Assembly: GCA_946480965.1 (NCBI GenBank)
Contig: CAMLMI010000181.1
Span: 1-8,721, forward strand
Length of the DNA: 8,721 nucleotides
Reading direction: 5' to 3'
Source: an uncultured Verrucomicrobiales bacterium
Lineage (GTDB): Bacteria > Verrucomicrobiota > Verrucomicrobiae > Limisphaerales > CANJSG01
Of this stretch, positions 5,901 to 8,291 are shown piece after piece. The translations under genes and the position numbers were made by a program. Position 1 is the stretch's first letter, and each line of letters opens with the position of its first letter. The notes under the pieces are model-generated. The model was not told where the DNA came from. It worked only from the letters and a program-made list of their open reading frames with translations, and ran no database searches.

Positions 5901-6905
5901 TCAACGTTGAGGGCTGTAGAGCTGGTCGAAGACGCCGCCTTCGGCGAAGTGCGTTTTCTGGGCTTGTGCCCAGCTGCCGAAGACTTCGTCCACGGTGAAG
6001 AGCTTGAGCTTGGGAAACCGGTCGGCGTTCGCCTCGGCCACCGATTGCAGGCGGGGGCGGTAGTAGTGCTTCGCGGCGAGGCGCTGGCCTTCCTCGGTGT
6101 AGAGAAACTTGAGATAGGCCTCGGCAACCGCCGTCGTGCCGCGCCGTTTGGCCACCTTCTCCACCACGGCCACGGGCGGCTCCGCGAGGATGCTTTCGGA
6201 AGGAATGACGATCTCGAACTGGTCCGGGCCGAGCTCGTGGATGGCGAGGAAGGCTTCGTTTTCCCAGGCCAACAGCACGTCGCCGATGCCGCGCTGGGCG
6301 AAGGTCGTGGTCGAGCCGCGCGCACCGGTGTCGAGCACAGGCACGTTCTTGAAGAGCTTGGCGACGAACTTGCGGGCCGTCGCCTCGCTGCCGCCGGGCT
6401 GATGCAGCGCCCAGCCCCAGGCGGCGAGATAGTTCCAGCGCGCGCCGCCGCTGGTCTTGGGATTGGGCGTCACGACGCCGATGCCGGGCTTCGCCAGATC
6501 GCCCCAGTCCTTGATGCCCTTCGGATTCCCCTTCCGCACGAGGAACACGATGGTCGAAGTGTAGGGCGTGGCGTTGTCCAGGAGCCGCTTCTGCCAATCG
6601 GCGGGCAGCAGCTTCGACTTCTCGGCAATGGCGTCGATGTCCGGCGCGAGCGCGAGGGTGACGACATCGGCTTCCAGGCCGTCGATGACCGCGCGGGCCT
6701 GTTTGCCGGAGCCGCCGTGGGATTGCTTGATCACGACGGTCTGGCCGGAGGTCGCCTTCCATTGCTGGGCGAAGGCGGCGTTGACCTCGGTGTAGAGCTC
6801 GCGGGTCGGATCGTAGGAGACGTTGAGGAGCTGCAGGTCCTTGGCGACGGCGGCCGACACCGACAGACCGGCCAAGAGAATAAGCAGAGAACGGAATGGT
6901 TTCAT
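5901..6905 (-). CDS. sbp: Periplasmic sulfate-binding protein Sbp/CysP
   Basis: A 334-residue periplasmic receptor that hands sulfate (or thiosulfate) to CysT/CysW. Residues 1-21 are a signal peptide (MKPFRSLLILLAGLSVSAAVA) with a probable cut before KD. The family blocks are NVSYDPTRELY (28-38), QSHGGSGKQARAV (61-73), the long block NPKTSGGARWNYLAAWGWAL (148-167) and TFAQRGIGDVLLAWENEA (201-218). These are the anion-binding loops of the sulfate-binding subfamily and separate it from the molybdate and phosphate receptors. The length matches E. coli Sbp (329) and CysP (338). The mature protein has no Met and no Cys, as is classically known for sulfate-binding protein. It starts 33 bases after the porin stop with no Shine-Dalgarno site and is followed 6 bases later by the M14 hydrolase. 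Sulfate versus thiosulfate preference cannot be decided here. Confidence 0.94.
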   Translation of the reverse strand: MKPFRSLLILLAGLSVSAAVAKDLQLLNVSYDPTRELYTEVNAAFAQQWKATSGQTVVIKQSHGGSGKQARAVIDGLEADVVTLALAPDIDAIAEKSKLLPADWQKRLLDNATPYTSTIVFLVRKGNPKGIKDWGDLAKPGIGVVTPNPKTSGGARWNYLAAWGWALHQPGGSEATARKFVAKLFKNVPVLDTGARGSTTTFAQRGIGDVLLAWENEAFLAIHELGPDQFEIVIPSESILAEPPVAVVEKVAKRRGTTAVAEAYLKFLYTEEGQRLAAKHYYRPRLQSVAEANADRFPKLKLFTVDEVFGSWAQAQKTHFAEGGVFDQLYSPQR

Positions 6906-6938
6906 GGCGTTTTTGGAAGGTTAGTTTGAGGAAGCGTT

Positions 6939-8291
6939 TCAGAACGAGAGCTGGAGGCGGCTGACGAGGAAGTGTTCGTCTTGGCCCGAGACGGTGCCGG
7001 CATCACCGCCGTCGAACCGCGTCTGCGTGTAGCTGAGGTTCGCGCGAACGTTGCGGTTCAAATACCAGTTCAAGCCCGCGCTCCAGGCGGTGGCACGGCT
7101 GGCCGAGGTGGCGGCATTTGCGTAGCCGAGGGCAAAGGCGTCGTTGTCCACATCGAGCTGCGACAAGCGGGCCACGAGTTGGAAAGCACCCCAGCCTTCG
7201 TCGCCGATGCGGAAGGGTTTGCTAGGAGTGACGCCGCGAAAGCCGGCGGCTTCACCGGTGAGCACCCAACTGGCCGTGACCTGCCACGCGCTGTTCTCCA
7301 ACGAATCGGCGCGGGTCGGATTCTTCACGTCCTGGCCTGAAACGACGTATTCCGCGAGCAGCCCGAACGGCCCGACGTAGTAGTAGAGCTGGGGCGAGAG
7401 CCGATGCGTTTCGCCATCCGCCACGGCATTGGCCGCGTAGCTGAAGAACGTTTGCTGGCCTTCGGTGGCGTAGCCGGCGGGCAGCCCGTTGGCGCCGTTC
7501 CGTTCGCCCCAGCTCCCGCTCCCGCCCAGCCCGAGCCCTCGCAGGAACTCCGGTCCGCCCAGCTTGAAGGGATGGGCGAAGATTCTGGCGGCGAATTCCT
7601 TGTCGTCGTCGAAGTCTCCATTGTTGCTGCTGCGCCCGTCGCCCAGGCCGTTGAACACGCCGGCCTGATACTGGAGCAGTCCGTCCCGGATCTCACCGTG
7701 GAGCTGGAACCCGACGTCGCGGTTTGGCACGAGGCCGGTCGGGAGGGCGTTTTCCGAGAGAAACCGCACCGGATCGGACTGGAGCTGCTCCAGCCCGATC
7801 GGTGCCTTGAACTTGCCCGCCCGGAACTGGAGTTCGGGTCGGAACCGGTAGTTGAGATTCGCGTCGAGCAGCGACGGCGAGCCGGTGCCACCGAACTCGG
7901 CGACGAACTGGTAGTCGAAGTCGCGGAAGAACGTGCCTTCAAAGATCGGCCGCGCCCGGCGGATGAGGAAGGCGTCGTTGTTCGCGATGCCGCCGTCGTC
8001 GAAGTAGAACCGGCTGTCCGCCTGAACCAAACCCCGGACCCGGAAGGCGAAGTTCGTGTCGGCCGTTTGAATGGCCAAGCCCCCGGCGCCGAGCGAGACG
8101 GTCGGCGCGGACTTGGCTTTGGTTTCCGCCGCTTCTTGGTCCAGCTCCCAGCGCCGCTCCAAGACGCGATAGCGCTGTTCCAAGGCGTTGAGTTTTTCTT
8201 CGAGTTCCCGAACGCGATCTGCGTCGGGCGCAGCCGCCAGCGCAGAAAACGCCGGGAGCAGCAGCGCAGTGGTTTGGATGGCTTTTTTCAT
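6939..8291 (-). CDS. OprO/OprP-family outer-membrane porin, probably sulfate/anion
   Basis: A 450-residue outer-membrane beta-barrel of the phosphate-selective porin O/P family. Residues 1-21 are a signal peptide (MKKAIQTTALLLPAFSALAAA). Residues about 24-60 form a charged coiled coil (RVRELEEKLNALEQRYRVLE) as in many such porins. The barrel runs from about 80 to the end, with FRVRGLVQADSRFYFDD (83-99), FLIRRARPIFEGTFFRDFDY (108-127) and the hallmark AGKFKAPIGLEQLQSD (158-173), and it ends in the aromatic terminus LQLSF needed for BAM insertion. ATG at 8291 is chosen because MKKA begins the signal peptide; the upstream TTG at 8312 lies inside an operator-like palindrome. It is the first gene of the sulfate operon, so sulfate is the likely solute although family members are named for phosphate or polyphosphate. 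The mature part has no Met and no Cys, which supports expression under sulfur limitation. Confidence 0.9.
   Translation of the reverse strand: MKKAIQTTALLLPAFSALAAAPDADRVRELEEKLNALEQRYRVLERRWELDQEAAETKAKSAPTVSLGAGGLAIQTADTNFAFRVRGLVQADSRFYFDDGGIANNDAFLIRRARPIFEGTFFRDFDYQFVAEFGGTGSPSLLDANLNYRFRPELQFRAGKFKAPIGLEQLQSDPVRFLSENALPTGLVPNRDVGFQLHGEIRDGLLQYQAGVFNGLGDGRSSNNGDFDDDKEFAARIFAHPFKLGGPEFLRGLGLGGSGSWGERNGANGLPAGYATEGQQTFFSYAANAVADGETHRLSPQLYYYVGPFGLLAEYVVSGQDVKNPTRADSLENSAWQVTASWVLTGEAAGFRGVTPSKPFRIGDEGWGAFQLVARLSQLDVDNDAFALGYANAATSASRATAWSAGLNWYLNRNVRANLSYTQTRFDGGDAGTVSGQDEHFLVSRLQLSF

Follow-up and report, generated by a model that had tools for sequence, protein, structure and literature searches.

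A methionine- and cysteine-free outer-membrane porin encoded beside sulfate import genes, and methionine scarcity in related porins linked to sulfur genes

We analyzed an 8,721-nucleotide contig of an uncultured Verrucomicrobiales bacterium (CAMLMI010000181.1, assembly GCA_946480965.1; the whole of this stretch is called the window below), in which the gene of an outer-membrane porin of the Porin_O_P family (OprO/OprP type) stands immediately upstream of sbp, the gene of the substrate-binding protein (Sbp) of a sulfate ATP-binding cassette (ABC) transporter. Beyond their first residue, neither protein contains any methionine (Met) or cysteine (Cys). Among related porins the depletion goes beyond chance, is nearly restricted to Met (and Cys), and follows linkage to sulfur genes, both across genomes and through independent switches of linkage. 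The sequences make it very probable that the porin is an entry route for sulfate that is co-transcribed with sbp and made under sulfur scarcity, and from which Met and Cys have been selected away.

A sequence-only reading of the window had claimed that mature Sbp and mature porin are free of Met and Cys, and the counts confirm it: position 1 holds the only Met of each protein, and there is no Cys in the 450 residues of the porin or the 334 of Sbp. Its counts for neighboring products were exact as well (10 Met and 1 Cys in CysA, 5 and 1 in CysW, 4 and 2 in the M14 enzyme), and CysT contains 4 and 0. With start residues excluded, porin and Sbp together have no Met in 782 residues, as compared to 1.70% of the 1761 residues encoded by the five other window genes (Fisher p 2.5e-5); for Cys, the same comparison gives p 0.12. 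At the Met rate of the porins of its own subclade that are not linked to sulfur genes (see below), 5.5 Met would be expected in the 449 residues of the window porin, and at that of phosphate-linked porins 7.2, the probability of finding none being about 0.004 and 8e-4, respectively. The Met-free state of a single porin is thus only modestly improbable by itself, and for that reason the strength of the support lies in its recurrence across genomes. Among the 120 nearest porin relatives, counted irrespective of gene context, 105 are Cys-free and 29 are Met-free beyond the first residue. Absence of Cys was considered as main evidence and dropped: most Porin_O_P proteins examined lack Cys in any context, so that its absence carries little weight. 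Consequently, where Met and Cys depletion together had been offered as compositional evidence, the Met part stands and the Cys part does not, as Cys is rare in all porin classes.

Open reading frames (ORFs) matching PF07396 were collected from 15 genomes with sbp loci (matches in 12), from the phyla of an Opitutaceae locus, L036 (115 genomes, matches in 44), and of a Pyxidicoccus locus, L012 (58 genomes, matches in 46), from the family of a Pseudoxanthomonas locus, L022 (60 genomes, matches in 56), and from the class of a Novimethylophilus locus, L006 (94 genomes, matches in 46). In the larger genome searches, the loci read were part of the matches listed. Removal of 5 ORFs under 330 amino acids (aa) and 5 duplicates reduced the set from 251 to 241, the neighbors of which were classed against a panel of E. 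coli K-12 and window proteins. Met was counted over the last 370 residues of each porin. The paralogue and context comparisons concern the genomes of relatives, not that of the window itself. Sulfate-linked porins (n = 41) have no Met in 26 cases, one in 11 and two in 4, whereas phosphate-linked porins (n = 49) have a median of 6 and a minimum of 1, with no zero. The five sulfonate-linked porins have 1, 1, 1, 1 and 4 Met, and the 146 porins in other contexts have a median of 4, with one zero. As every one of these classes is poor in Cys, it is Met loss, unlike Cys loss, that is unusual for the family. For most of the "other" loci that fall outside the subclade, the flanks read spanned 1.5-3 kb, so that some sulfur linkage may be missed among them. 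Wider flanks were read for the unlinked subclade members of this first set, with some truncated at contig ends, and for a portion of the second; by these, L089, L247 and L098 were relabelled as linked, while the class counts of the 241 ORFs use the earlier labels.

The comparison was replicated with a porin profile run over 274, 148 and 387 genomes, of which 18, 28 and 39 gave matches; the genomes partly overlapped with those drawn earlier, and 60 ORFs were kept after removal of 20 duplicates and 5 short ORFs, and "linked" here meant immediately upstream of sbp. Eighteen ORFs had that position, with no Met in 8, one in 6, two in 3 and four in 1 (two or fewer in 17/18), while the 42 others had a median of 6, three being Met-free and 39 carrying 2-11. 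Pooling both sets, 58 porins stand immediately upstream of sbp: 34 without Met, 17 with one, 6 with two and 1 with four (57/58 with two or fewer), and 57 of the 58 lack Cys. Porins adjoining sbp recur in genomes of several groups. Moreover, with updated labels, the linked mean lies below that of the unlinked paralogues in 34 of the 35 genomes that have both, the sole genome with a higher linked mean being G014 (4 vs. 3), and where linked and phosphate-linked copies share a genome the linked copy is strictly lower in 17 of 18. It had been proposed that cys-linked copies would prove lower in Met plus Cys than pst-linked ones, and that equally Met-free unlinked porins in the same genome would speak against a sulfur role; in these relatives the Met medians are 0 and 6 (41 and 49 ORFs), and the unlinked paralogues are not equally Met-free. 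Together with the subclade and tree comparisons that follow, these results lend good sequence-based support to the earlier claim that sulfur limitation is the condition in which this porin is produced.

One could suppose that low Met is simply inherited, the sulfate-linked porins being one subfamily that is Met-poor for structural reasons, and indeed 38 of the 41 linked porins fall, together with the window porin, in one subclade of 57 rows. However, all 15 unlinked members of that subclade carry 2-9 Met. Comparing its 38 linked with its 15 unlinked members (L089 and L247 being set apart), Met content is 0.11% vs. 1.23% (p 4e-9) and Cys content 0.00 vs. 0.13% (p 1e-3); His differs at p 0.045, and no other residue gives a p below 0.05. 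As only Met, Cys and His differ within the subclade, neither clade membership nor an overall shift in composition accounts for the result. In the columns where unlinked members have Met, linked members mostly have Leu, Val, Ala, Thr or Phe.

Tree-controlled pairs gave the same picture. Both larger trees contained all subclade rows and the replication set, to which randomly drawn rows from beyond the subclade were added, 15 of them phosphate-linked and 15 from other contexts. In the 157-row tree, where the distal-end porins L398, L399 and L427 counted as unlinked and three sulfonate-type loci were labelled linked after their neighbors had been seen, there are 21 changes of linkage to sulfate or sulfonate genes and 19 supported independent pairs; at a threshold of one Met or fewer, 14.7 pairs speak for the association and 0.0 against it (median p 6e-5), with 12.1 vs. 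0.0 at two or fewer and 8.9 vs. 0.1 at three or fewer. The 160-row tree follows a uniform 3 kb rule, by which L398, L399 and L427 were relabelled as linked, and adds L023, L033 and L048; its 68 sulfate-linked rows comprise 35 with no Met, 18 with one, 8 with two and 7 with 3-7. Its 21 pairs give 13.4 for and 0.0 against at one Met or fewer (median p 2.4e-4), and 10.2 vs. 0.1 at two or fewer; taking sulfate linkage alone, the figures at one or fewer are 12.7 and 0.1 (median p 2.4e-4). Uniform labelling thus supports the link slightly less than the earlier labelling did. An earlier 97-row tree had given 6.0 vs. 0.0 pairs at the same threshold. Hence the claim that sulfur-linked porins are poorer in Met survives both within one subclade and across independent pairs. 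In addition, Met is scarce in linked porins that fall elsewhere in the family (L143 with 0, L084 with 1, L145 with 2, all from beyond the subclade), and the distant matches L386 and L389 (150-160 bits), which stand beside sbp, have none, as compared to 6 and 7 in the paralogues L395 and L394. Inheritance of low Met is already contradicted by the within-clade comparison and the independent pairs, and we consider it very unlikely.

Hardly more credible, and in our judgment marginally less so, is the possibility that a general or phosphate anion porin stands in a sulfate operon by accident. The family is named for phosphate selectivity and the predicted fold fits OprO/OprP; against this, the position immediately upstream of sbp recurs in several groups, and it is the sulfur residues that are depleted, other residues not. 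Least probable of all is that Met is avoided because outer-membrane proteins are exposed to oxidants, or because of its energy cost, rather than through sulfur supply: porins are exposed and every class is Cys-poor, but phosphate-linked members of the family keep a median of 6 Met, also within the same genomes, and the costly residues Trp, Phe and Tyr do not differ significantly within the subclade.

Sulfonate import genes form a related setting. The three Met-free porins among the 42 others of the replication (L438, L436 and L445) sit in operons with the order Rrf2 gene, porin, NMT1-type binding protein, TauB-like ATPase, SsuC-like permease and cysM, the putative substrate of which is a sulfonate. 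Of the 8 porins from sulfonate-type settings, 7 carry at most one Met. The depletion signal may therefore be one of sulfur scavenging in general. At L457, L458 and L459, the place of sbp-cysTW is taken by sulfonate-type ABC genes together with one for an NMT1-type binding protein, with the Rrf2 gene, the Met-free porin and cysM retained.

Several findings weigh against a sulfur-sparing explanation, or narrow it. Met-free status as such is only weakly associated with linkage in the larger trees (7.8 vs. 0.4 pairs, median p 0.016, in the 157-row tree; 6.4 vs. 0.4, median p 0.031, in the 160-row tree), and in the 97-row tree there was no significant association at zero Met; at three or fewer, the 160-row tree gives 8.1 pairs for and 1.4 against. 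Genome G106 has a linked and a phosphate-linked porin that tie at 1 Met each. Met persists in porins located downstream in sulfate operons, at their far end (L089 with 1, L427 with 2, L398 with 3, L048 and L098 with 4), and in two porins whose nearest sulfate gene is 1.6-2.2 kb away, namely L247 (4) and L399 (5), the latter being flanked by tau-like genes on the opposite side. L023 and L033, both from Methylophilus and situated about 2 kb upstream of sbp, have 7 Met each. Even immediately upstream of sbp, L392 has 4 Met, and L018 has 3 in its whole 460-aa ORF; the latter matched the first profile weakly and the refined one not at all, and its genome has no PF07396 match, on which grounds it may belong to another family. 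Conversely, L123 is Met-free while lacking any sulfur gene of the panel over a distance of about 8 kb. This same porin, read at L353 (8001-9395), has genes for LptF/LptG and deoxyhypusine synthase as its neighbors. Proximity to cysteine-synthesis genes alone does not go with depletion either: porins with only cysM nearby have 5 (L120) and 3 Met (L122), one beside cysI and cysH has 3 (L127), and L439, beside cysM, cysH, cysD and cysN, has 2 Met and 2 Cys; none of these four has a sulfate or sulfonate importer within the flanks read. Finally, no depletion is seen in the NMT1-type binding proteins that the three sulfonate-type operons encode (3-4 Met in 300 aa). Overall, the rule is strong for a porin just upstream of sbp and weaker elsewhere, differing expression being a likely, if putative, cause. 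The proposed link between porin and sulfur genes thus holds for porins directly upstream of sbp and for some in sulfonate-type operons; those at the far end of the operon, which make up most of the exceptions, keep 1-5 Met.

Depletion of Sbp itself is widespread. In a set of 116 Sbp proteins, which leans toward window-like sequences, many of them being among the top 80 matches to the window Sbp, mean Met content is 0.11% and 87 proteins are free of both Met and Cys in the last 300 residues, as compared to 1.35% and 0 of 52 for PstS; in eight more distant Sbp-like proteins the Met content is 0.42%. Depletion is milder in the permeases than in the exported Sbp, with 1.70% Met in CysT and 1.58% in CysW vs. 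3.85% in PstC (n = 8) and 3.33% in PstA (n = 3). Such an order, in which exported products lead, agrees with a cost proportional to the amount of each protein, on the assumption that these products are the abundant ones.

A putative regulator also accompanies the linked porins. With the 80-aa Rrf2 fragment of the window as query, a match was found in the neighborhood of 21 of the 41 sulfate-linked porins, of none of the 49 phosphate-linked ones and of 2 of the 144 others; in the replication, 12 of the 18 porins adjoining sbp and 4 of the remaining 42 had such a match nearby, these four being the three sulfonate-type operons and L439. The fragment scores 94.1 bits against the Rrf2 superfamily (cut-off 73.3), 72.9 against CymR (NF047409; cut-off 195) and 64.1 against IscR, below its cut-off, and the gene is a candidate sulfur regulator of the operon. 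A perfect 12-bp palindrome at 8303-8314, directly upstream of the porin start codon, is a possible operator; a search allowing up to two mismatches did not recover its motif ahead of the other linked porins examined, the start codons of which were guessed by script. Regarding expression in other bacteria, passages of one report describe induction of the Synechocystis sbpA-cysTWA operon by sulfur starvation (PMC2491639), and passages of another describe Sbp and CysW as marginally raised in sulfur-starved P. aeruginosa (PMC12581299).

Altogether, we propose that the porin would be the outer-membrane entry for sulfate, and perhaps for sulfonates too, serving the CysTWA-Sbp importer. It would be co-transcribed with sbp and abundantly made when sulfur is scarce, probably under control of the divergent Rrf2 regulator. 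If porin and Sbp were the most abundant operon products during starvation, every Met or Cys that they contained would use up the very nutrient that is sought, and selection would have stripped these residues from the exported mature chains. The remaining Met begins the signal peptide, which would be cut off and could be recycled. Beyond the window, we lean slightly towards a widespread, so far unnamed class of sulfur-free sulfate/sulfonate porins, often accompanied by an Rrf2 gene, in which Met was repeatedly erased on joining such operons, or regained on leaving them, so that the Met count would report nutrient limitation. Element sparing is usually argued from pathway-wide averages, while this porin family supplies its own controls, namely proteins of the same fold, membrane and subclade, and often of the same genome, with and without sulfur-gene linkage. 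Composition may thus be a usable clue to the expression condition of uncharacterized porins, and many proteins annotated as phosphate-selective porins gain a likely sulfur role.

The features of the window are collected in Table 1. On the minus strand the order is porin, sbp, hydrolase, cysT, cysW and cysA, with gaps of 33, 6 and 153 bases from porin to sbp, hydrolase and cysT in turn; the Rrf2 gene begins 190 bases from the porin start. The OprP-type linkage to phosphate genes is not found here, the porin adjoining sbp-cysTWA and the Rrf2 gene instead. The few relatives of the window porin with a named organism belong to Verrucomicrobiota or Limisphaerales, except for one from Methylomirabilota, which by itself would make Verrucomicrobiota the probable phylum of the source. 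Homologues of the AstE/AspA-type hydrolase lie near the porin in 4 of the 41 sulfate-linked loci, within the flanks read for the first set. They occur in sulfate operons of other Verrucomicrobiota loci (L036, L257, L265, L460 and L467), at L467 next to another match that is weak and has no Pfam family.

Table 1. Features of the window, with profile matches and their cut-offs.
Feature	Positions	Strand	Length	Match
Porin_O_P (OprO/OprP-type) outer-membrane porin	6939-8291	-	450 aa	PF07396, 132.6 bits (curated cut-off 20.9), residues 83-450
Sbp, sulfate ABC transporter substrate-binding protein	5901-6905	-	334 aa	NF008022, 520 bits; TIGR00971, 492.8 bits (curated cut-off 155.5)
AstE/AspA-type (M14-like) hydrolase, between sbp and cysT	5028-5894	-		PF24827, E 2.7e-11
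CysT sulfate permease	4050-4874	-		TIGR02139, 373 bits (cut-off 246)
CysW sulfate permease	3109-4032	-		TIGR02140, 407 bits (cut-off 329)
CysA sulfate ABC ATPase	1990-3048	-		TIGR00968, 364 bits (cut-off 343)
Histidine kinase, downstream of cysA	221-1858
Rrf2-family regulator, divergent, cut by window end	8482-8721	+		PF02082, E 2.1e-25

The AlphaFold model of the porin (pLDDT 85.1, pTM 0.79) has OprO, OprP and an OprO mutant as its top three Foldseek matches (4rjw, E 2.6e-23; 2o4v, E 5.3e-23), and in a profile comparison with OprO/OprP the match spans positions 72-434 of 460. It thus has the PF07396 family and fold in common with OprP and OprO of P. aeruginosa (2o4v and 4rjw), which are phosphate and polyphosphate porins, and differs from them in standing beside cys rather than pst/pho genes and in having a mature chain without Met or Cys. 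In an alignment read by eye, F62 and D114 of OprO, the residues named in the title of entry 4rjx, correspond to Arg114 and Lys162 of the window porin, columns where Arg or Lys is also common in other porin classes. When the window, L089 and L247 are counted in, 41 subclade rows are linked, of which 37 have Arg94, 38 Arg/Lys157, 41 Lys/Arg160 and 39 Arg297, whereas these basic residues are much rarer in the 49 phosphate-linked porins, the commonest residues of which are Tyr, Gln, Gln and Thr, respectively; the 15 unlinked subclade members have Arg or Lys at these columns in at least 8, 11, 10 and 13 cases. R94, R157, K160 and R297 are thereby candidates for anion-selectivity residues, and that such basic residues tune the porin to sulfate is a guess.

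As regards Sbp, the window protein is of the same family as PDB entry 1sbp (E 6.5e-141) and, with most close relatives sulfur-free, its depletion is nothing new, the porin being the extension. The principle of element sparing is known already: passages of PMC5513900 and PMC5607370 cite it for assimilatory proteins (Baudouin-Cornu et al. 2001) and for sulfur-depleted cyanobacterial proteins (Mazel and Marliere 1989), and, according to passages of PMC8557817, several proteins raised under sulfate starvation in Rhodococcus qingshengii IGTS8 hold few Met and Cys. A literature search confined to open papers found no case of sulfur sparing recurring in a class of outer-membrane porins. As described in those sources, proteins that gather an element, or that are made under its shortage, contain less of it, and the window porin is alike in this respect. 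Nevertheless, the earlier cases concern assimilation pathways and abundant cyanobacterial proteins or, for R. qingshengii, enzymes of one organism identified by proteomics, with no porin in the passages concerned, while the case described here concerns an outer-membrane porin, followed across many genomes and controlled by its own unlinked paralogues.

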